Origin: Candidatus Reidiella endopervernicosa
Lineage (GTDB): Bacteria > Pseudomonadota > Gammaproteobacteria > GCF-013343005
Direction of reading: 5' to 3'
Length of the DNA stretch: 64,000 nt
Assembly (NCBI RefSeq): GCF_013343005.1
Contig: NZ_CP054491.1
Location: 1,470,501 to 1,534,500, forward strand
Each line of letters opens with the position of its first letter. The stretch's first letter is position 1. Positions 4,965 to 43,927 of the stretch are shown here, piece by piece. The notes under the pieces are model-generated. The model worked only from the letters and a program-made list of their open reading frames with translations. It did not search any database and was not told where the DNA came from. The position numbers were made by a program, and so were the translations under genes.

Positions 4965-6581
4965 GTCAGCAAAAGATCGAGTCACTACTAAAACAGCGGA
5001 TTGGTCTAAATCCGTCCTCAGTCGGTTCGGTGACGATTGAACATGCGGTTCGCAAGCGTATGTCGAGTGGTGGGATAGAGGATATTACTCGCTACGTCGA
5101 GCTGGTGAGTGAGTCGCAGAAGGAGTTCGAACTACTCATTGATGAGGTGGTGGTTCCTGAAACGTGGTTTTTCCGCTCAGCCGAGGCGTTTGATTCGCTG
5201 GTGCGCTATGTGCGAGATGAGTGGTTGTTGCAGAACCCTGGAAAGTGTTGTCGTCTGCTGAGTATCCCCTGTTCCAGCGGTGAAGAGCCTTACTCAATGG
5301 CGATGGCCCTGCTCGGTGCGGGGGTGCCGGCAGGTAGTTTCCATATCGATGCGGTCGATGTCAGTCAGCATAATCTGCACAATGCGAAAAAAGCGATCTA
5401 CGGTAACGGCTCGTTTCGTTCGCAGGATCTGAAGTTTCGTGATCGTTATTTTAGCCGCAATGATGAGCATCACTATCGACTGCATCGCTCGGTTAGTTCA
5501 GTGGTCAGCTTTCACCACGCCAACCTGTTTGATACCGACCTGATGCGAGATGCGGCCAGTTATCAGGTGATATTCTGTCGCAATCTGTTGATCTATTTCG
5601 ATCGCAGCACGCAAGTACGTGCCGTCTCCGTGCTACGAGGATTATTAGACGCCGAGGGTGTGCTCTTTATGGGGCATGCCGAAACGGGCTCCTTTCTCAA
5701 GGGTTGGCATCCGTCAATCGCTGACCGCCATGGAGAGCGAAGTGAGGGCGGTTAGTCCCCGATAGTCGACGCCGTCTGCCTATTCGTAGTTGAGAGCGCG
5801 AGCGAACGACGGAGAAGATGCAGCAGCGGCTTTATGTCGGCGTAGAGTCACTGAGGGAGTTGTGTAGAGCAGCGAAGAGGTGATTACGCAACGAACGCAG
5901 GACGGTCGGGGCGCCGCAGGCATAAACGGTCGCGTGAAGTTTTGCTGTTTGCTTGGGCTTGGATGCCCAAAACAAACTTTCGCAAAAATAGCGACTCCCC
6001 GGCGTTTTCCGCTCTCCTTTGCCTATCGAAAATTTGATGATGGGGCGTTGAGTGGCCGCAAAAAACGTCTCTTCCAGCCGCGCAGCCTAAAGAGTCAGCT
6101 GGAACCAACAAGATCAACAACAGCGCATACGAAAACAGCAGTTAGTGATGCGCCTCTACCCTTTGCAGGTGAGGCTCCCAAGCAGCGTTCAGCTTCGGAA
6201 GAGCCGCTGCAGCGAGCGGCCCGGGTGGCAACGGTTGAGGTGGAGGTGAATCAAGAAATCTCAATCGAGCAGGCTCGTGCTCTTGCCGATAATGGTGATA
6301 TGCAAGCTGCTTCAGTCTGCTGTCAGCAACTTATCGATATCAACGGCAGTGATGCAGAGGCATTTTACCTGCTCGCTACCATCCATCAGGCGGATGGGGA
6401 TCTTGGCGGTGCTGAGAGTCTGCTGCGCAAAGCGCTCTATCTCGATCCTGGACACTATGAGGTGGTAGTTCACCTGGCAACCATCATGGAGCGTCAGGGT
6501 GACCTGGATGCCTCAAGGCGTTTTCGCCAGCGCGCAGAGCGCCTGGGTGATCGCCTCAACAGTGGAGTGTCGGTCGAATGA
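4961..6581 (+). pseudogene. wspC: WspC-like CheR methyltransferase with TPR tail, interrupted by the 284-bp element
   Basis: The N-terminal part (bases 4961-5718) is a CheR-type receptor methyltransferase with the SAM-binding LLSIPCSSGEEPYSMAMALL and the later IFCRNLLIYFD motif. The 284-bp element then enters after GWHPSI and brings an in-frame stop (ADRHGERSEGG, stop). After the element the sequence resumes as RFPLSFAYRKF, a low-complexity linker and a TPR region (EAFYLLATIHQADGDLGGAESLLRKALYLDPGHYEVVVHLATI), exactly the WspC domain order. Deleting 283 bp joins the two halves in one frame. Apart from the insertion no decay is visible, so insertion is probably recent. Full-length WspC would need removal of the element; as DNA it is a broken gene. 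Confidence 0.88.
5719..6002 (+). repeat. 284-bp element, copy 1 (inside wspC)
   Basis: Begins CGCTGACCGCC and ends GCGACTCCCCGG. It is close to copies 2, 3, 4 and 7 (subgroup with GACGGAGAAGATG). It lies in the sense direction within wspC. No direct duplication is seen between the left flank (CCGTCAAT) and the right flank (CGTTTTCC). Confidence 0.95.
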
Positions 6582-7316
6582 TATCGGAACAGGAGAGCGA
6601 TCTGACAACGATCGACGACTGCTGGAACCGGATTGGTGTCTGGAGCCGTGAAGAGTCACGCTGTCCGGAGCTTGAGCGCTACGTGCACTGTCGCAACTGT
6701 CCCACCTTCGCCAGAGCCGGACGACATGTGCTTGAGAACCGGGTTGCCGATGACTATATGCGCGAGTGGGCCGATATCTACGCGCAGAACAAACAGACCC
6801 GCGCCATCGATAACCGGATCTCGACTGGTGATCTTCCACTCAGGGGAGTGGTTTGCGTTGCGAACGTGGAGAAAAATTCGGGAGATCTCAGCAACTGGTG
6901 AGATCCACCACCAAATTTCCCACACCTCTTCCAAGGGATGTCTGTGCCACTTAGGAGGATCTTAGTGAAAGTGGATGGAGGCTACCTGTGTTCCGCTGGA
7001 AATTGGCGGCACTGATAGCAGGCCCGTGAACCAACCAGATGGTCGATCAACTAAATCACACCAGCGGATGATATCTTTACCAGCTAGAGGAGGGCTTTTC
7101 TTCCGGTGGTGATCAGCGGTACCTATGCTTCCATTCAAGAGAGTGGGCACCGCATACCCGCCATGCAAGGGTCTGGCGCTCGAGGGATGCCAGATGCCGT
7201 TAACGGATCGCGTTGATGGGGAGCTACTCGATTCACTGCTGCAGAGAGGGCTTGCGTCGAGCGTGATGGAAGATCTTGGGCGCAATTTCGTGACGTTCGC
7301 TGGGTCTTCAAGCTAG
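6578..7316 (+). pseudogene. wspD: Decayed WspD-like CheW protein
   Basis: The intact opening, MISEQESDLTTIDDCWNRIGVW...CPELERYVHCRNCPTFARAG, carries the Cys-rich N-terminus diagnostic of WspD. Reading then fails: a frameshift near 6845 moves the CheW domain into another frame (GEWFALRTWRKIREISATGEIHH), which stops near 6963. Beyond that only scraps of a CheW C-terminus can be followed in shifting frames, for example GDQRYLCF (about 7113) and DGELLDSLLQRGLA (about 7214), which resembles the usual last helix. Several independent lesions show this gene has been non-functional for some time. It overlaps the wspC stop by 4 bp, as in an intact Wsp operon. Confidence 0.75.
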
Positions 7317-8848
7317 GAGGTAGGGAAGTCATGCTAACAGACCCTGAATGAGAGGGTTGCTGGCGCTGAGGATCCCAGGCGCGTTGAGGGATCGATGCGT
7401 TGATGCGAGCTGCTCACTCGATCAAGGGTGCTGCACGCATGGTCGGCGTCGAAGCTTCGCAATCGTCCCTTGCCATTGTCGATGGAAGTCTGGATGGTTG
7501 CCGCACAGATGGTGACCCTCAGATGGGTACTGGCACTCGATGCAGTGCTCATGGGGTCGACTGCTGGAGCGAGATCGGACGCCTCGATGAGGGTGCGGTT
7601 GCTGGTTGGTGATCAGCGAGCCCTTGAGGCGTAGCGCCAACTGTAGGATTTGTTGCGCCGATGCTCGACAACCCGTAGCTGCTAAGGCCATCGCTGACAG
7701 TCTCCGACGTGAATTAGTCCAGCGTGGAAATCGCGAGTCCCGCTAAGCGCTGCTCGGTGGACGCGAAAACCAATGTTGGGACGTTCCGCCAGGAGGCATG
7801 GGCCGATGCACACCTCCTTTCCGGTGAGATGGCCTCCTGGGCTGGCACTGGAGCAGACCCCTGGATCGGCGGAAGATCTGGAGTCGATGATGCGTGCCGC
7901 CCACTCGATCAAGGGTGCGGCACGGATGGTCGGTGTCGATGCAGCGGTGGGCGTGGCGCACGTGATGGAGGATCTGTTTGTTGCAGCCCAACAGGGGCAG
8001 CTCCTGCTTGCGACAGAGCATGTCGATGAACTGCTGAAGAGTGTCGATCTGCTTGGGGCAGATGGTGAACCAGTGAGTTGATGCGAGTTGGTAGCGAGCA
8101 GATATGAACGAGGTTGCGACACGAGTCACCAGCTTGCAGCGCTGCTGGCGGTGAGAGCCGAGCAGAAATCAGCTCAGAACCTGTTGTGAGCAGTGCAGCG
8201 CCAGCTAGCAGTCAGACTGGCCGATGCCACCATGCTCAGTCGGCCTGTGAGATCGGCACTCAACAAGACCCTCACCGAGGCACTGCTGGCACTGGAAAAG
8301 GCCCCCTCGTCGGCGGAAGATCTGGAGTCGATGATGCGCGCGGCCCACTCGATTAAGGGTGCTGCGCGGATGGTCGGTGTTGATGCCGCTGTACGAGTCG
8401 CGCATGTGATGGAAGACGTTTTTGTCGCTGCACAGAAGGGTGAACTAGATCTACTTGAGTGGCATATCGATACGTTGTTAAAAGGCGTCGATATGTTGGG
8501 GCAGATTGGTGCGCAGGATGATGCAGTACTGATTAGCTGGCAGCACGATAACGCCAACGAGGTTGCGGCACTTGAGTCGCAGTTGCAGCGACTGCTTGAC
8601 CCTGATGCCGAGCCTCCCGCCGCCCCGGCGGTTGAACAGCTGGCTCCAGTAGAGACAGACGCTGAAAGGAGCGCTCTCATCACGGCTGAATCTGATTCGG
8701 CCACATCAGAAAGAAGCGCCTCTCCCGCCGCTGACAAACCCTCAGCGAAAAAGAGTAGTGACAGTTCGCTACGCGTTACCGCCAGCGTGCTTAATCGCCT
8801 GATGGGTTACGCCGGTGAGGCGCAGGTCGAGGCGGGTAATCTGCGCCC

Positions 8849-9131
8849 CGCTGACCGCCATGGAGAGCGAAGTGAGGGCGGTTAGTCCCCGATAGTCGAC
8901 GCCGTCTGCCTATTCGTAGTTGAGAGCGCGAGCGAACGACGGAGAAGATGCAGCAGCGGCTTTATGTCGGCGTAGAGTCACTGAGGGAGTTGTGTAGAGC
9001 CGCGAAGAGGTGATTACGCAACGTACGCAGGACGGTCGAGCGCCGCAGGCATAAACGGTCGCGTGAAGTTTTTGCTGTTTGCTTGGGCTTGGATGCCCAA
9101 AACAAACTTTCGCAAAATAGCGACTCCCCGG
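8849..9131 (+). repeat. 284-bp element, copy 2 (inside wspE, sense)
   Basis: 283 bp, inserted between GNLRP and FAESLLKL of the kinase dimerisation region. The start is CGCTGACC and the end CCCCGG. It carries GGTCGAGCGCC where most copies have GGTCGGGGCGCC. The left flank CTGCGCCC and right flank TTTGCTGA show no target duplication. Confidence 0.95.
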
Positions 9132-10102
9132 TTTGCTGAGTCGCTGCTGAAGCTGCGTCATCGTCAGGTTGAGCTGCTCGGTGTGTTGGAGGAGCTCAAT
9201 GAGGCGATGGAGGGAGCCGAGGTTGATGAGTTCGGTCTCAGTCTGCTCGGTACGGCGATAGACAAGGCGGGCGAATGTCGTCAGATCCTGACCGAGCGCC
9301 TGACCGATCTCGACGCCTTTGAGCGACGTAATACCCGACTCGCTGATCGACTCTCACGAGAGGTTATCTCTAGCCGCATGCGCCCCTTCATTGAGGGTGT
9401 ACACGGTTTTAACCGCATGGTCCGTGATATCTCCAAGTCGCTCGGTAAAGAGGTGAAGTTCGAGATTCGCGGCAAGGATACCAAGGTCGATCGTGACATC
9501 CTCGACAAGATTGAGGCGCCGCTCAACCACATGGTGCGTAATGCACTCGATCATGGCCTGGAGACCCCCGAGGAGCGTCTGGCGGCGGGTAAACCGGCCG
9601 AGGGACGGTTGCTGCTTGAGGCAGTACACAACTCCGGCATGCTCTCCATTATCGTTAAGGATGATGGGCGCGGCGTCGATCAGGAGGCGCTGCGTAAAAA
9701 GATAGTGGCGCGCGGCATGGTGAGCGAACAGATGGCGACAGACCTATCGGAGTCAGAGCTGCTCGATTTTCTGTTCCTGCCCAGCTTCTCCACCCGTGAG
9801 CAGGTCTCGGAGATTTCGGGGCGTGGTGTTGGCCTCGATGTGGTGCACAGTACGATGCAGGAGATGCGCGGTGTGCTGCACGCCACCTCAACCCTGGGTG
9901 AAGGGATGCGCATCCATCTGCAGCTACCACTCAGCCTCTCAACGATACGTGCCCTGATGATTGATGTGGGTGGTGAGAGTTATGCGGTTCCGCTGGCGCG
10001 CATCGAGCGGACCATGATGGTGCCGCGCGATCAGCTCAAGATCATGGAGGGGCGCCAATATGTGATTGTCGATGAGGCGAGTATTGGGCTGCTGCAGGCG
10101 CA

Positions 10103-10384
10103 CCGGGAGTCGCTATTTTGCGAAAGTTTGTTTTGGGCATCCAGCCCAAGCAAACAGCAAAAACTTCACGCGACCGTTTATGCCTGCGGCGCCCCGACCG
10201 TCCTGCGTACGTTGCGTAATCACCTCTTCGCGGCTCTACACAACTCCCTCAGTGACTCTACGCCGACATAAAGCCGCTGCTGCATCTTCTCCGTCGTTCG
10301 CTCGCGCTCTCAACTACGAATATACAGACGGCGTCGACTATCGGGGACTAACCGCCCTCACTTCGCTCTCCATGGCGGTCAGCG
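10103..10384 (-). repeat. 284-bp element, copy 3 (inside wspE, antisense)
   Basis: The only copy on the minus strand, 282 bp; it reads CCGGGAGTCGC at its left edge and GGTCAGCG at its right edge on the + strand. It sits between LLQAH and QVLEVEGH of the CheW-like domain. With copy 2 it forms an inverted pair flanking 971 bp of wspE. Confidence 0.95.
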
Positions 10385-13186: not shown

Positions 13187-13470
13187 CGCTGACCGCCATG
13201 GAGAGCGAAGTGAGGGCGGTTAGTCCCCGATAGTCGACGCCGTCTGCATATTCGTAGTTGAGAGCGTGAGCGAACGACGGAGAAGATGCAGCAGCGGCTT
13301 TATGTCGGCGTAGAGTCACTGAGGGAGTTGTGTAGAGCCGCGAAGAGGTGATTAGGCAACGTACGCAGGACGGTCGGGGCGCCGTAGGCATAAACGGTCG
13401 CGTTAAGTATTTGCCGCTTGCTTGGGCTTGGATGCCCAAAACAAACTTTCGCAAAATAGCGACTCCCCAG
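13187..13470 (+). repeat. 284-bp element, copy 4 (intergenic)
   Basis: Starts CGCTGACC 25 bp after the thioredoxin terminator and ends CCCCAG rather than CCCCGG. Intergenic; no gene is visibly hit. Together with the next ~240 bp this fills the thioredoxin-to-AAA ATPase gap. Confidence 0.95.
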
Positions 13471-14757: not shown

Positions 14758-15966
14758 GTGGCCGATTCTGTCGAGACCAAACTGAGCGCGGCCCGCACGC
14801 GCCTGATTCTCGACAAACCGTTTCTCGGTGCGCTGGTGATGCGTTTGCCGATGGTCGAGGCCAATCCCGACTGGTGTGCGACGACTGCCACCGATGCACG
14901 TAGCTTCTACTTCAATCGCAGCTATATCGAAGATCTCTCGGTCTCACAGACTCAGTTTGTGCTCGCTCATGAGGCGCTGCACTGCGCATTGTCACACTTC
15001 TCTCGCCGACAATACCGGGTCAAACACCGCTGGGATCTCGCATGTGATTTCGCTGTCAATCCGTTACTGCTTCGCGATGATCTGATTCCTCCGCCTAACG
15101 CCATCGTTATCGAAGAGTATGACGATATGACGGCCGAGGAGATCTACCCCCTTATCGACGATAAGGATGATTCCGAACTACTCGATCAGCACCTCTATGA
15201 TGGTGACAATGAGGGCGAGGAGCAGAACAACAGCCAGGGTAGTCAGGGTGGTAGTGGCTCTGAGAAGGAGCTCGATGATAACGAACCCGGCGGTTCCAAA
15301 GGGGCCAAGGCGCCACCACCACTCTCGGTCGAGGAGCAGCAGCAGCTTGAGGTGCAGTGGCGTCAGCGAATGGCGAGTGCCGCCCAGCAGGCGCTACAGG
15401 CGGGCAAGCTGAGTGGGGCGATGGCGCGCATGGTCGATCACATGCTGCAGCCACAGCTGCCGTGGCGCATGCTGCTGGCGCGTTACATGACCGCCACCGC
15501 TCGTGATGACTACAGCTATTCTCGCCCCTCGCGGCGTGAGGGCGATGCGATCTTCCCGTCGCTGCGTAGTGCCGAGATTGAGGTGGTGGTGGTGCTCGAT
15601 ACCAGCGGTTCAGTGAATGATCGAGAGATCAGTGAATTTCTCTCCGAGGTGAACTCCATCAAGGCGCAGACCCGCGCCAACATTACCCTACACGCCTGTG
15701 ATGCCGCGCTCTCACCCAAGGGGCCCTGGTCCTTTCAGCCGTGGGAGGAGTGCGCCCTGCCTGAGGAGCTGGAGGGCGGTGGCGGATCCGATTTCCGTCC
15801 CATTTTCGAGTGGCTCGATCGTGAGGGGCGGAGCCCCAATCTGCTGGTCTACTTCACCGATGCGCTGGGCGATTTCCCTGAGATTGAACCCAATCTGCCG
15901 GTAATCTGGCTGGTGAAGGGTAAGGCCAGGGTGCCCTGGGGGCAGCGCGTACAGCTCAACCGCTGA
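14758..15966 (+). CDS. VWA-domain protein with putative metallopeptidase N-domain (DUF2201-like)
   Basis: 402 residues, GTG start 3 bp after the ATPase. The N-terminal domain has a metal-binding helix LAHEALHCALSH (HExxH). A Gly/Ser/Asp-rich linker at about residues 150-190 (NNSQGSQGGSGSEKELDDNE) leads to a C-terminal VWA-like domain with the MIDAS motif VVLDTSGSVNDREIS. The pairing with a MoxR ATPase is typical. The natural end appears to be ...RVQLN then TGA: the 284-bp element is inserted precisely there and its first bases CGCTGA supply an Arg codon and a replacement stop, so the protein gains one residue and stays functional-looking. Confidence 0.85.
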   Translation: MADSVETKLSAARTRLILDKPFLGALVMRLPMVEANPDWCATTATDARSFYFNRSYIEDLSVSQTQFVLAHEALHCALSHFSRRQYRVKHRWDLACDFAVNPLLLRDDLIPPPNAIVIEEYDDMTAEEIYPLIDDKDDSELLDQHLYDGDNEGEEQNNSQGSQGGSGSEKELDDNEPGGSKGAKAPPPLSVEEQQQLEVQWRQRMASAAQQALQAGKLSGAMARMVDHMLQPQLPWRMLLARYMTATARDDYSYSRPSRREGDAIFPSLRSAEIEVVVVLDTSGSVNDREISEFLSEVNSIKAQTRANITLHACDAALSPKGPWSFQPWEECALPEELEGGGGSDFRPIFEWLDREGRSPNLLVYFTDALGDFPEIEPNLPVIWLVKGKARVPWGQRVQLNR

Positions 15967-16245
15967 CCGCCATGGAGAGCGAAGTGAGGGCGGTTAGTCC
16001 GCGATAGTCGACGCCGTCTGCATATTCGTAGTTGAGAGCGCGAGCGAACGACGAAGAAGATGCAGCAGCGGCTTTATGTCGGCGTAGAGTCACTGAGGGA
16101 GTTGTGTAGAGCCGCGAAGAGGTGATTACGCAACGTACGCAGGACGGTCGGGGCGCCGCAGGCATAAACGGTCGCGTTAAGTATTTGCCGCTTGCTTGGG
16201 CTTGGATGCCCAAAACAAGCTTCCGCAAAAATAGCGACTCCCCGG
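15961..16245 (+). repeat. 284-bp element, copy 5 (at the stop codon of the VWA gene)
   Basis: 285 bp, CGCTGACC to CCCCGG, of the GACGAAGAAGATG subgroup with ATTTGCCGCTTG in the 3' hairpin foot. The left flank ends CTCAAC and the right flank begins TGATGG, so excision would give AAC-TGA, the inferred original stop. Confidence 0.95.
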
Positions 16246-27017: not shown

Positions 27018-27929
27018 ATGTCCACGCAACATAATCGGTGCAGCGATGCACCCAGAGTCACTATCGGTCTGCCGGTCTATAACGGTGAGGACTTTCTTGC
27101 CGCTGCGTTGGAGTCATTGCTTGAACAGTCGTTCACCGACTTCGAACTGATTATCTCCGATAACGGCTCCGATGATTCCACTCAGGCGATCTGTGAAAAA
27201 TTCGCAGCCGAAGATAGACGGGTGATCTACCTGCGTGAGCAGATCAACCGAGGTGCAGCGTGGAACTATAACCGCCTTGTCGAGAGGGCGAGGGGTGAAT
27301 TCTTCAAATGGGCCGCTCATGATGATCTCTGTTCACCCGGCTACCTTGAGCAGACAGTGGCCGCGCTCGATGAAAATCGAGATGCAGTGCTCGCCTTTTC
27401 ACACTCGATATTTATCGACGCCGAAGGTCGTGAGGTGGGTCTCTACTACGACCGGCTCGATATTAACCATCACAAACCCCATCGCCGTATGAAGCGGCTG
27501 GTGCGTACGCTGCACTTCTGTAATTCCGTATTTGGTCTGATCAGGCTCTCAGCGTTGAAAAAGACCCACCTCATCGGTACTCATCTCTCATCTGACAAAA
27601 CGCTACTGACCGAGCTGGCGCTGCTGGGACATTTTCATCAGGTTGAGGACTTTCTCTTCTATCGCCGCCAGCATGAGAAGATGTCGGTGGCCGCCAATCG
27701 CAAGGCTAGCGACCTGCGAGCATGGTTCGATCCTGCCGAGCGAGATGTAAGGGATTACAAGGTGAAAGGACGACTACGACGCGAGCAGTATCGGGTGATC
27801 TGGCGTTCCGATTTGACGTTAACGGACAAGCTGCTCTGTTCTACTTCAACCTGTGTTGATCGATTTTATCGCAAGTGGTTTAAGCGCAACTTTCATGCGG
27901 ACTTTCAGCGTCTATTGCCAGTTGAATGA
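27018..27929 (+). CDS. Family 2 glycosyltransferase
   Basis: 303 residues. GT-A fold opening VTIGLPVYNGEDFLAAALESLL, nucleotide-sugar binding IISDNGSDDSTQAICEKFA, and the catalytic-region motif KWAAHDDLCSPGYLEQTV. No membrane segment. It follows the methyltransferases by 19 bp and probably transfers the modified sugar onto a surface glycan. Its 3' end (TCVDRFYRKWFKRNFHADFQ) reappears twice downstream as fragments, showing that this gene was once duplicated. Confidence 0.9.
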   Translation: MSTQHNRCSDAPRVTIGLPVYNGEDFLAAALESLLEQSFTDFELIISDNGSDDSTQAICEKFAAEDRRVIYLREQINRGAAWNYNRLVERARGEFFKWAAHDDLCSPGYLEQTVAALDENRDAVLAFSHSIFIDAEGREVGLYYDRLDINHHKPHRRMKRLVRTLHFCNSVFGLIRLSALKKTHLIGTHLSSDKTLLTELALLGHFHQVEDFLFYRRQHEKMSVAANRKASDLRAWFDPAERDVRDYKVKGRLRREQYRVIWRSDLTLTDKLLCSTSTCVDRFYRKWFKRNFHADFQRLLPVE

Positions 27930-28764: not shown

Positions 28765-28922
28765 TGTCTTGGTTAGTGGTGTTGGTCTCTACACGATTGT
28801 ATTTGTTCTGCTCTGTACGGAGTCAACTTGTGTTGGTAGATTCCACCGAATGTGGTTTAAGGCGTAACTTTCATGTGAGTATTCAGCGGTTGGTTTCGTC
28901 CGAAGAGACGAGCGCTGAGTGA
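28765..28922 (+). pseudogene. Remnant 1 of a GT2 glycosyltransferase 3' end
   Basis: The stretch around 28826-28905 (ACTTGTGTTGGTAGATTCCA, then GTGGTTTAAGGCGTAACTTTC) aligns with the last ~85 bp of the intact glycosyltransferase (27846-27929). A stop interrupts the equivalent of WFKRN. This is a decayed tail fragment. The surrounding 28.64-29.57 kb contains no other recognisable gene. Confidence 0.6.
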
Positions 28923-29424
28923 GGTAGGGTCGGTAATATGTCTGTGTCCATGCTACCGGGGTATTGTTGCGAGTTGATTGAGGAGGTTTCCGGAGAAGCT
29001 ATCGCACTTTGAGTAGCTCGATATCCCAGTACGCCCGCCTTGATGGTTTCTCGAACGCGCTGTCAGCTCTCGTTGTGCCAGGCATCAAGCAACGACTCGT
29101 TGTTAAGACCGCCTAAGGTGTTTTTACCTGGCGCATCGTTGCAACAGAGGCTCAATTTCCCACCGGGTCGGTCCACCATCTGGATTAACGGGAGCAGGCA
29201 TGAGGCCTTGAGTGGTTGCAGGATGCCCTTGTTGGGCGTCACGCCTGAGTGAGAGGAGGGACTTTATCCACCTTTCTGGCCAGAAAATTGATGCGTTGTT
29301 CTGTTTGTTAATTAGGCGTTATGGTTTCGGATGGTGTTGGTGCGGAAGAGAGTCGATACTAGTGTAAGCTGGGCCAGAGAGTGTTTTCTCTAATATCTGT
29401 AGTAATTGCTCTCGGACCTGGTTT

Positions 29425-29517
29425 TTAACCTGTGTTGATCGATTTTATCGCAAGTGGTTTAAGCGAAGTTTTCACGCCGATTTTCAACAGCTTGTTTCGG
29501 TCGATAGCAATAAGTAA
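29425..29517 (+). pseudogene. Remnant 2 of a GT2 glycosyltransferase 3' end
   Basis: From 29430 the DNA ACCTGTGTTGATCGATTTTA and onward encodes TCVDRFYRKWFKRSFHADFQQLVSVDSNK then stop, nearly identical to the C-terminus of the intact glycosyltransferase at 27846-27929. No matching upstream glycosyltransferase sequence is present, so this is a 3' fragment left by deletion or recombination between duplicated genes. Confidence 0.75.
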
Positions 29518-30158: not shown

Positions 30159-30377
30159 CGCTGACCGCCATGGATAGCGAAGCAAAGGCGGTTAGTCCGC
30201 GATAGTCGACGCCGCTTTTTCGCGCGGAAGTGGCGGTTTTGTCGGCGTAGAGTCACTGGGAGCGTGAGAGCGAAGAGTGATTACGCAACGAAGCGGCAGT
30301 CGGGGCGTAGGGATAAATGGTCGCGTTAAGTTTGCTGTTTGTGTGATGCCCAAAACAGCTTTCGCAAATACGACCGA
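30159..30377 (+). repeat. 284-bp element, diverged short copy 6
   Basis: About 219 bp. The first 50 bases and several internal blocks (GTCGGCGTAGAGTCACTG, GTGATTACGCAACG, GGTCGCGTTAAGTTTGCTG) match other copies, but the loops are shortened and the 3' end is altered (CGACCGAGGA). The complementary arms are kept: AGTCACT/AGTGATT, CTGTTT/AAACAG, TTTGC/GCAAA. Oldest or separate subfamily member. Confidence 0.88.
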
Positions 30378-31104
30378 GGATTCTGTTTACGCCTGAAGGC
30401 GCTCTGTTTCGTCTGAATTCGCGTTGTTGCTGTGGTGCGTTCCCGGGCTTGTGAGTGCCTGCATAATAATCGCCGCGTGGTCAAGAAAATCAAATCAATC
30501 TCCGTCTGTCGAGGATGGAAAGCGAGTGTGTTTATCGCGTGTAATGGATCAGCGCTATGTTTGTATCGATTTAGCTCAATCTAGCCTCGTGCTGACAGCC
30601 GATTGTTCTAGTTATTCACCGCCACAGTCTCCCTGCCTGCTACTGTCCCTCATGAACTAACGCCTGCCGTGGTCGGACCAGTCATCCTACGCCGCGCAAT
30701 AAGAGATTGGGGCCAAGAAGCGTAGTTTTCGGTGTAAGGAGTGATCAGTACGGCGGTAACCGATCGTTTGATTTCATCTGCTCAGTCCTGAGTTTGTGTC
30801 CTGCTGTTGTCGACAGTACTCTGATCCTTGTTTAATAGTTATATCATCGCCACATTCTCATTCCCACCTGCCCCTCGTCGCTATCAAAGTGAATAACTAA
30901 CCTTCAAGCTCCGTGATGTACGGCCTCTGTCCGCGTACCGGCCTGCCATAATACGTTCAGAATCTCATTCAGAGGAGGAGACATGCAACGGCGGGTAATG
31001 ATCAGTTTTTGTTTCACGCTAGTTCCCTTGAGTTTGGTTGTCCCTGTTGGTGTGCGTCGATCAAGTGCTCTGAGCCTTTGATTTAATGACTTGTTATGTG
31101 GGTT
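30378..31104. other. Gene-poor interval
   Basis: No convincing gene on either strand. Open frames here lack RBS, domain content and typical codon use. The one noteworthy item is a strong RBS (AGAGGAGGAG) before ATG at 30983, which opens a 32-codon frame with a signal-peptide-like start (MQRRVMISFCFTLVPLSLVV) and stops at 31081; it may be the truncated start of a lost exported protein. The composition suggests accessory or decayed DNA. Confidence 0.5.
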
Positions 31105-31551: not shown

Positions 31552-32472
31552 TCACATGACGTCTGCCTTGAGAGTATTGGCGCGTAGTGCAAAATACTTC
31601 TCCAAGGCTTTGTTACCATCGGTACCGTAGTACTGCTCCATGTGTCGCTTCAACCGAATGGCAATCGGATGATCTTGACCCAATGCTCTCAGCGCTTCAG
31701 TGGGATCAACTAGATCGCCATATGGATTACTGTCGTAAAACGAAGCGACCTCCTCAAACATTACTGTCGCGTCAGATTGCTGCCCGATCCAGAAAAGACA
31801 CTCTCCCTTTTGCTCCTGGAGTTTGACGTATCGCCAGAGGGTACTCTTGGCGAAGACGACCGGTATCCACTAAGTCATATTCTTGGAGCGCCTCTTGATA
31901 ACGCTTCTTGTCATGGTGGCAATGTCCTGAATATAGATGAGCCATGTAATGGGGTCGATTTCTTTGGATTGCTGCGGCGAAATGCAGCAGTGCCAGATCA
32001 GTATCGCCCGCTGACCGCCATGGAGAGCGAAGTGAGGGCGGTTAGTCCCCGATAGTCGACGCCGTCTGCCTATTCGTAGTTGAGAGCGCGAGCGAACGAC
32101 GGAGAAGATGCAGCAGCGGCTTTATGTCGGCGTAGAGTCACTGAGGGAGTTGTGTAGAGCCGCGAAGAGGTGATTACGCAACGAACGCAGGACGTCGGGG
32201 CGCCGCAGGCATAAACGGTCGCGTTAAGTTTTTGCTGTTTGCTTGGGCTTGGATGCCCAAAACAAACTTTCGCAAAAATAGCGACTCCCCGGATCCTCTT
32301 CACATTCACGATCATATACCAACAATCCCATTATATAGGGGACGTCGCCGCTGGGATCCTCTTCCGGAAGAAGTCCCTCGAGATCACTAATGCAGTCAAG
32401 CAGAACCGACGGCTCCATGCTGCAGGACCAGCGGTTGTATATTTCTCGTGCTGTTTCTCGGTTTTGGTTCAT
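31552..32472 (-). pseudogene. TPR-like protein interrupted by the 284-bp element and frameshifted
   Basis: Minus strand, start MNQNRETAREIYNRWSC at 32472. After 60 codons (...LVYDRECEED) the element interrupts; beyond it the frame resumes exactly as GDTDLALLHFAAAIQRN...LYSGHCHHDKKRYQEALQEYDLVD, a TPR-like helical repeat. A one-base frameshift near 31830-31840 then moves the rest (LQEQKGECLFWIGQQ, FEEVASFYDSNPYGDLVDPTEAL) to another frame ending at 31552. Without the element the gene would encode about 212 residues. Function unknown; the deaminase follows 11 bp downstream and may have been co-transcribed. Confidence 0.75.
32009..32292 (+). repeat. 284-bp element, copy 7 (inside the TPR gene, antisense to it)
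   Basis: 284 bp, CGCTGACC to CCCCGG; nearly identical to copies 1 and 2. It is inserted between GAT and GGC codons of the minus-strand TPR gene; deletion of exactly these 284 bp restores the frame. No duplication: flanks are TATCGCC and ATCCTCTT. Confidence 0.95.
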
Positions 32473-40413: not shown

Positions 40414-40697
40414 CGCTGACCGCCATGGATAGCGAAGCGAAGGCGGTTAGTCCGCGATAGTCGACGCCGTCTGCATATTCGTAGTTGAGAGCGCGAGCGA
40501 ACGACGAAGAAGATGCAGCAGCGGCTTTATGTCGGCGTAGAGTCACTGAGGGAGTTGTGTAGAGCCGCGAAGAGGTGATTACGCAACGTACGCAGGACGG
40601 TCGGGGCGCCGAAGGCATAAACGGTCGCGTTAAGTTTTTGCTGTTTGCTTGGGCTTGGATGCCCAAAACAAACTTTCGCAAAATAGCGACTCCCCGG
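40414..40697 (+). repeat. 284-bp element, copy 8 (intergenic)
   Basis: 284 bp, from 30 bp after aroC to 41 bp before the PKHD hydroxylase. It belongs to the GGATAGCGAAGCGAAGG / GACGAAGAAGATG subgroup. It may have separated the hydroxylase gene from its original promoter. Confidence 0.95.
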
Positions 40698-42816: not shown

Positions 42817-43099
42817 CGCTGGCCGCCATGGATAGCGAAGCGAAGGCGGTTAGCCCCGATAGTCGACGCCGTCTGCCTATTCGTAGTTGAGAGCGCGAGC
42901 GAACGACGAAGAAGATGCAGCAGCGGCTTTATGTCGGCGTAGAGTCAGTGAGGAAGTTGTGTAGAGCCGCGAAGAGGTGATTACGCAACGTACGCAGGAG
43001 GTCGGGGCGCCGCAGGCATAAACGGTCGCGTGAAGTTTTTGCTGTTTGCTTGGGCTTGGATGCCCAAAACAAACTTTCGCAAAAATAGCGACTCCCCGG
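42817..43099 (+). repeat. 284-bp element, copy 9 (intergenic)
   Basis: 283 bp; begins CGCTGGCC (one change in the first hairpin arm, which weakens the stem) and has AGTCAGTGAGGAAG. The flanking 43100-43480 has no gene that I can support. Confidence 0.93.
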
Positions 43100-43489: not shown

Positions 43490-43927
43490 ATGAATAAGAA
43501 CACCGACGCTGACCGCCATGGATAGCGAAGCGAAGGCGGTTAGTCCGCGATAGTCGACGCCGTCTGCCTATTCGTAGTTGAGAGCGCGAGCGAACGACGA
43601 AGAAGATGCAGCAGCGGCTTTATGTCGGCGTAGAGTCAGTGAGGGAGTTGTGTAGAGCCGCGAAGAGGTGATTACGCAACGTACGCAGGACGGTCGGGGC
43701 GCCGTAGGCATAAACGGTCGCGTTAAGTATTTGCCGCTTGCTTGGGCTTGGGTGCCCAAAACATGCTTCCGCAAAAATAGCGACTCCCCGAGCGGGTTAA
43801 AGAGATGTTTGCCGAGCGCTATATGGAAGCGGTTTCGCTGATGCCAGAGCCGCCCCAGAGTCGCGGCCGGGATGTGGAAGCCGTCATGCGATTGCGTGAG
43901 CGCCTGCACACAGCGATGAACGGTTAG
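43490..43927 (+). pseudogene. Small hypothetical gene split by the 284-bp element
   Basis: An RBS (CCAGGAG) and ATG open a frame MNKNTD that runs straight into the element after six codons. After the element the sequence continues in frame as ERVKEMFAERYMEAVSLMPEPPQSRGRDVEAVMRLRERLHTAMNG and stops. Without the element this is a ~51-residue, mostly helical cytosolic protein. No recognised family. It is convergent with the LysR gene, whose stop lies at its 3' end. Confidence 0.65.
43507..43790 (+). repeat. 284-bp element, copy 10 (inside a small gene, sense)
   Basis: 284 bp; ends CCCCG followed directly by AGCGGG. It shares the ATTTGCCGCTTG foot with copies 4 and 5, and has ACATGCTTCCGC in the 3' hairpin. 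Flanks AACACCGA and GAGCGGG show no clear duplication. Confidence 0.93.

Follow-up and report, generated by a model that had tools for sequence, protein, structure and literature searches.

The repeat of which copy 6 is a short, diverged member is a non-autonomous, gene-less and mobile element of about 283 bp, and sequence comparison across its relatives establishes a selected fold at the level of the family. The element works like REP/REPIN sequences and IS200/IS605 derivatives and, on balance, we lean towards the reading that it inserts at replication forks as folded single-stranded DNA, through an HUH enzyme (Y1/RAYT-type) acting in trans. With its relatives, it would form a large family of non-coding mobile elements that is missing from Rfam and that combines a selected fold with a simple target rule.

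Copies in the window and the genome

The window, i.e. the whole stretch of 64,000 nucleotides that was analysed, contains ten interspersed copies, of which nine are full-length (281-284 nt, found by BLAST) and 94-100% identical to the reference copy (13187..13469, + strand, 226 bits with the covariance model R1 described below). The cheR-like methyltransferase gene is broken once, by the copy at 5719..6001 (+, 229 bits), and a cheA-like gene is broken twice, by copies in opposite orientations (8849..9130, +, 222 bits, and 10104..10384, -, 223 bits). The remaining full-length copies all lie on the + strand, at 15961..16244 (224 bits), 32009..32291 (223 bits), about 40414..40696 (228 bits, just 3' of the chorismate synthase gene), 42817..43098 (200 bits, somewhat diverged) and 43507..43790 (209 bits). 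Copy 6 itself (30159..30381, +) has 70% identity to the reference copy, and R1 matches it with 100.5 bits and an E-value of 2.4e-27, which is rough, as are all R1 E-values. When up to three mismatches are allowed, a 26-mer motif of the element has 295 matches in the 3.45-Mb genome and none in the reversed control; some copies in this genome also stand head-to-tail in tandem. No relevant Rfam match to the element was found, either at the gathering threshold or at a relaxed E <= 5.

Two further features of the window were observed. The cheA-like region (7300-10384) has a decayed look, with its two oppositely oriented insertions and a duplicated Hpt-like stretch (7841-7996 and 8285-8440, 81%). 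In addition, 63-nt direct repeats (60-89%) are found at 27845-27907, 28822-28884 and 29424-29486, which derive from the terminal part of a glycosyltransferase-like gene and lie in otherwise gene-poor surroundings.

Fold and covariation

R1 was built from an alignment of eleven sequences with an 80-pair consensus, in which 33 of the 80 pairs had already changed on both sides. The top strand folds into a 5' hairpin (P1), a long-range helix (P2) around two branches (P3 and P4), and a 3' hairpin (P5) that stops a few nucleotides short of the right end of the element, while the junction nucleotides of this multi-branched fold are invariant. For the covariation analysis, 92 R1-aligned matches were reduced to 67 (<95% identity) and all column pairs (about 38,600) were scored with an APC-corrected G-test, against 100 alignments simulated on a FastTree tree with per-site rates (IQ-TREE AliSim), a procedure that imitates R-scape. 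The first-pass annotation had read copy 6 as evidence for a selected folded nucleic acid and had named covariation above the phylogenetic background as the check. Such covariation is indeed present: over the whole matrix, 23 column pairs are significant at E <= 0.05, and all but one of them (22) are pairs of the consensus structure. In the test of the given structure, 50 of the 80 pairs pass, with support in all five helices. Because an alignment fitted to a model leans towards the model's own structure, the analysis was repeated after these sequences had been aligned with MAFFT without reference to structure, which gave eight significant pairs, all eight within the structure.

Paired positions of the top strand hold 516 G.T against 84 A.C cells, which identifies this strand as the one that folds, be it in the form of RNA or of single-stranded DNA. 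G.T pairs make up 11.7% of the paired cells, a level that would be expected of an RNA fold. Of 68 representatives, 30 have GC-GAA-GC as the tip of P1, and 14 of 24 GC-GNNA-GC loops in the P3 region have a pyrimidine as their third nucleotide. RNA favours GNRA loops. Ultrastable DNA mini-hairpins are known to consist of a GNA or GNNA loop and two G-C pairs (PMC4686876), and by this comparison the P1 and P3 loops would match DNA better. The foot of P3 carries a conserved [AG]TAG (T 0.89, A 1.0, G 1.0, with G at the first position in only 41%), and P4 is mostly preceded by GTAG.

Copy 6 and its siblings

The earlier description of copy 6 as about 65 nt shorter than its siblings is accurate (219-223 versus 281-284 nt), and the arms quoted there are literally in the sequence. 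All family helices discussed here are on the + strand. P1 (30160..30196) pairs GCTGACCGCC (30160-30169) with GGCGGTTAGT (30187-30196) below an apical GC-GAA-GC mini-hairpin, and covaries at three positions (whole-matrix E=0). P2 (30197..30305) closes the P3 and P4 branches through CCGCGA (30197-30202) and TCGGGG (30300-30305), and four of its seven pairs have a set-test E < 0.01. P3 (30205..30246), a covarying family helix, consists of GTCGAC (30205-30210) and GTCGGC (30241-30246), above which the upper stem GCCGCTT/AAGTGGC is shortened, and the 3' hairpin P5 (30319..30375), also a family helix, has the base GGTCG (30319-30323) / CGACC (30371-30375) and the inner arms CTGTTT/AAACAG.

That the losses would fall mainly outside the stems holds as well: relative to the sibling at 40414-40697, copy 6 lost 51 of 129 unpaired versus 28 of 155 paired positions, and 56 of the 58 family pairs with bases on both sides are standard, counts that lean towards the structure since the alignment was fitted to it. 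When the partner is slid by 1-5 nt, the paired cells fall from 56 of 58 to 17-32. Copy 6 differs from the sibling at fourteen family pairs, 13 of which are standard pairs in it, versus a mean of 7.0 on shuffling (p = 0.0007). Both bases were replaced in four pairs, and P5 contains three of these. In this 3' hairpin, the reported arms TTGGGC/GCCCAA do form a covarying family helix and the switch to CTGTTT/AAACAG is real compensation. The proposed AGTCAC/GTGATT arm, by contrast, is no family helix, as three of its six positions pair in 0 of 26, 3 of 25 and 1 of 26 relatives, and the conserved partner of its GTC is the GAC of GCAGGAC. For ACGCCG/CGGCGT, the sequence is conserved as described, but the pairing is shifted, the covarying helix being GTCGAC/GTCGGC plus GCCG/CGGC. 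Folded by itself, copy 6 is not unusually stable (RNA z -1.35, DNA z -0.75), and single-sequence folding of one sibling was not significant either; it is therefore only the comparison that supports the fold. Since the family fold covaries and copy 6 obeys it, the proposal of a selected folded nucleic acid is supported, and copy 6 is best explained as an older or parallel member of a short subfamily under the same structural constraint. The alternative that was posed with it, i.e. a functional RNA or a single-stranded DNA recognised during movement, is still the right dichotomy.

Insertion site and boundaries

Within its own genome, the element is preceded by a C at position -4 of the left flank in 75 of 81 copies (93%), while the other left-flank positions are close to random. 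The same holds for 67 of 70 distinct insertions in other genomes (against a background of 23%), and also for copy 6, the left end of which is preceded by CGAT. The element thus stands 3' of CNNN^ (where ^ is the point of insertion), both within and outside genes. Neither the comparison of flanks nor the reading frames restored upon removal of the element point to a target duplication in general; a copy around 1501-1782 of locus L160, flanked by the 9-nt direct repeat CGTTTCCAG, is the sole case noticed that resembles one, and was treated as an exception. Terminal inverted repeats of the MITE type are absent.

Among relatives of the element, 16 insertions are informative; in 10 of them, a long reading frame reappears upon exact deletion of the element (e.g. 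in MCP-like and ChaC-like genes). The right end of the family is approximately C-N-M-T-Y-G. For the subfamily of the window, the same test places the right end one base past CTCCC(C)G in most informative cases, and this end is uncertain by 1 nt because most cases want that one further base. Empty sites were found neither among the fetched flanks of this genome (except at tandem copies) nor by searching the relatives with joined flanks.

Orientation and replication

The orientation of the copies was compared with the GC skew, which was determined from forty 5-kb samples and the window and changes sign at about 0.57 Mb (minimum) and 2.27 Mb (maximum). With forward copies counted completely to 1.84 Mb and reverse copies to 2.96 Mb, the region to the left of 0.57 Mb has 12 copies in forward and 40 in reverse orientation, and the region between 0.57 and 1.84 Mb has 78 and 14, respectively. 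Orientation thus follows the sign of the skew in 118 of 144 copies (82%; Fisher p 1.8e-13), in which the folding strand is the one with positive skew, and switches near 0.57 Mb, at the same place as the skew; beyond 2.4 Mb, past the end of the forward counts, reverse copies are frequent again. Assuming that positive skew marks leading-strand sequence, the folding strand would mostly be the lagging-strand template in this genome. A second genome (G248), in which the skew is irregular, has 18 of 28 copies following the skew (p = 0.18), and the replication-fork signature is therefore clear in one genome. Gene sense was considered as a source of the bias and is not supported, as orientation did not match the sense of the interrupted reading frames in a small, noisy, ORF-based and partly strand-selected sample.

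Proposed mechanism of insertion

Single-strand transposition by Y1 HUH enzymes is known to leave no target duplication, to use a short site on the left flank and to combine a strand-specific fold with a lagging-strand bias, and IS608, ISDra2 and related enzymes of the Y1 type work on the template of the lagging strand via folded single-stranded DNA (PMC6006769). For the present element, the lagging-strand template would become single-stranded during replication, allowing the element to fold, upon which cutting and joining of its ends would yield a single-stranded product that would enter exposed single-stranded DNA after CNNN. The putative enzyme would be a Y1-type HUH nuclease (a relative of TnpA-REP/RAYT or of the IS200/IS605 transposases) acting in trans, which is the weakest step. 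TnpA-REP cuts at CT or CA, and in one system a GTAG that lies 5' of the hairpin makes this choice through base pairing (PMC8266576). By analogy, the conserved RTAG and GTAG beside the feet of P3 and P4 may be guide sequences, and a target in which only the C is fixed would fit the G of such a guide.

The replichore-dependent orientation, the GNA/GNNA loops and the precise CNNN^ site favour single-stranded DNA over RNA, although each is compatible with RNA. Against a single-stranded DNA fold, the 11.7% of wobble pairs and the conserved interior look like RNA; this structurally conserved interior also goes beyond what the known Y1 elements require, and the orientation bias was not clearly reproduced in the second genome. 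Y1_Tnp genes are weakly enriched, being present in 43 of 55 carrier versus 198 of 314 other genomes (p = 0.03), and in 12 carrier genomes, some with several copies of the element, no Y1_Tnp was detected. The genes next to the copies are mostly ordinary host genes without enrichment, and no transposase is found in the 25 commonest neighbour families. As to individual loci, a truncated Y1_Tnp (RAYT-like) gene in the same genome as the window (L156, 1015-1899) lies about 156 bp from an element copy, an arrangement that chance could give; L158 holds a frameshifted Y1_Tnp relative and L157 an intact one beside repeats resembling its own REPs.

Alternatively, the element could be transcribed from outside, fold as RNA, enter single-stranded DNA at forks and be reverse transcribed, in the manner of a gene-less group II-intron-like or other ribozyme/ribonucleoprotein retroelement. 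Such an RNA route would account for the elaborate multi-branched fold with its invariant junctions and G.U-type pairs, as well as for the lack of a target duplication. Endonuclease-less group II introns such as RmInt1 also enter the lagging-strand template (PMC8914252), and because RmInt1-type introns share this strand preference, the orientation bias does not separate RNA from single-stranded DNA. Nevertheless, we consider this route rather unlikely: as nothing in Rfam matches, a group II or group I core of the types in that database is absent, the target is a single C at -4 rather than an intron-binding site, orientation does not follow gene sense (in the small and noisy sample), and the GNYA and GNA loops fit DNA better. 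Another enzyme of single-strand recombination, e.g. a tyrosine recombinase acting on folded single-stranded DNA as the integron integrase does on attC hairpins, would likewise explain a folded single strand, a strand bias and the absence of target duplications, and the dynamics of integron cassettes are also tied to the lagging-strand template (PMC5371416). The crossover lacks a GTT triplet, though, being CNNN^ with nearly random flanks, and no integrase occurs in the commonest neighbour families, which makes such an enzyme improbable.

The two remaining explanations seem very improbable. A classical MITE, i.e. what is left of a DDE transposon that moved in double-stranded form, the fold being a by-product, would be short, gene-less and high in copy number, as is the element, but neither the terminal inverted repeats nor the target duplication of DDE MITEs are found, and one-strand covariation throughout the interior and a strand-biased orientation do not fit it either. 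A regulatory RNA or DNA element adopted by the host, repeated by accident and with its structure selected for a host function, would fit the strong structural conservation. Equally far from probable, this is argued against by copies that lie inside and break genes (cheA twice, and cheR), by the varied neighbours and by identical copy sets in unrelated genomes. Insertion as folded single-stranded DNA by a Y1-type enzyme in trans hence stays our preferred reading, and both the identity of the enzyme and the action of the fold as single-stranded DNA or RNA become directly testable.

Relation to known mobile elements

REP/REPIN sequences, which are mobilised by RAYT, are like the element non-autonomous, high in copy number and folded as a single strand, and one C is central to the specificity with which they are cleaved, as it is to the target of the element. 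The RTAG/GTAG beside P3 and P4 may correspond to the GTAG/GTGG at the foot of a REP hairpin. REPs have a length of 21-65 nt, lie mainly outside genes and are often found on the flanks of their own RAYT gene (PMC6006769), whereas the element is ~283 nt, multi-branched, often intragenic and has no adjoining RAYT, so that the features of REP membership (20-65 nt size, mostly extragenic location, RAYT linkage) are not found in it. With IS200/IS605 elements (IS608, ISDra2) and their non-autonomous derivatives it shares the lack of a target duplication, insertion 3' of a short and fixed left-flank site, and structured ends; insertion into the lagging-strand template may be a further common feature, given the strand bias in the genome of the window. 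It differs in that it has no tnpA or tnpB, that one of four target bases is fixed with the other positions nearly free, and that an interior fold is conserved and not merely two end hairpins.

Group II introns that insert at forks (e.g. RmInt1) are also structured nucleic acids without target duplication and with a lagging-strand-template bias, but the element, at about 283 nt, has no Rfam group II match and no recognisable core (domain V etc.), no target resembling an intron-binding site, no sense bias in the small sample and no encoded protein. The HEARO and OMEGA RNAs of IscB/TnpB elements resemble it in being structured, RNA-like and associated with mobility without target duplication; in contrast to these, the element has no Rfam HEARO match, no IscB or TnpB in the commonest neighbour families and a target with one fixed base. 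Integron attC sites are folded single-strand recombination substrates that depend on the lagging strand, as the element would be. In contrast to attC sites, it lacks a GTT crossover and a cassette gene, the commonest neighbour families include no integrase, and its copies are dispersed, not arrayed.

It is conceivable, if doubtful, that the element represents an undescribed class of gene-less mobile nucleic acid in Gammaproteobacteria, in which the whole ~280-nt multi-branched fold would be the substrate of transposition or its active agent. In its strongest form, this would be a ribozyme-like mini-retroelement, capable of its own insertion into the single-stranded DNA of forks, 3' of any CNNN. 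No description of such an element family was found in open-access papers, which is no proof of novelty.

Distribution and variation of the family

The relatives of its chorismate synthase place the host of the window in the Gammaproteobacteria. With one copy as BLAST query, relatives were found in other families of the same class, and a relative's copy as query gave more. R1, for which at most four candidates were scored per genome, matched 55 of 369 sampled Gammaproteobacteria genomes (about 15%), in 44 of 272 genera, while in a phylum sample of 398 genomes from beyond this class there were just two weak or partial matches. Plasmid and phage collections searched with distant blastn gave no match, and a collection of viral contigs gave two contigs with the element and no more. 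Near-identical copy sets occur in the unrelated genomes G319 and G135, which suggests recent mobility. Complete R1 matches span roughly 200-370 nt, and no autonomous version with an internal gene was seen among them. Partial matches, including those to P5 only, were considered as separate forms but proved to be truncated copies or contig ends. R1 is ready for the annotation of otherwise unexplained repeats and broken genes.

Several variants were observed along the way. Copies in G248 (L236-L239) have the same 5' body with two different 3' hairpin modules, ending in GCGACTCCCTG or CTTGGCGCGCTTG, as if their right ends were exchangeable between copies, and the tip loop of P1 varies among them (GCTA, GATA, GCCA or GTTA). 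In G135 (L252-L255), a subfamily with a different 5' end (GAAGGAGCACAAGG) keeps the C at -4 upon insertion. Finally, two small genomes of one family (G314, of 1.0 Mb, and G094) each carry several diverged copies of the element.
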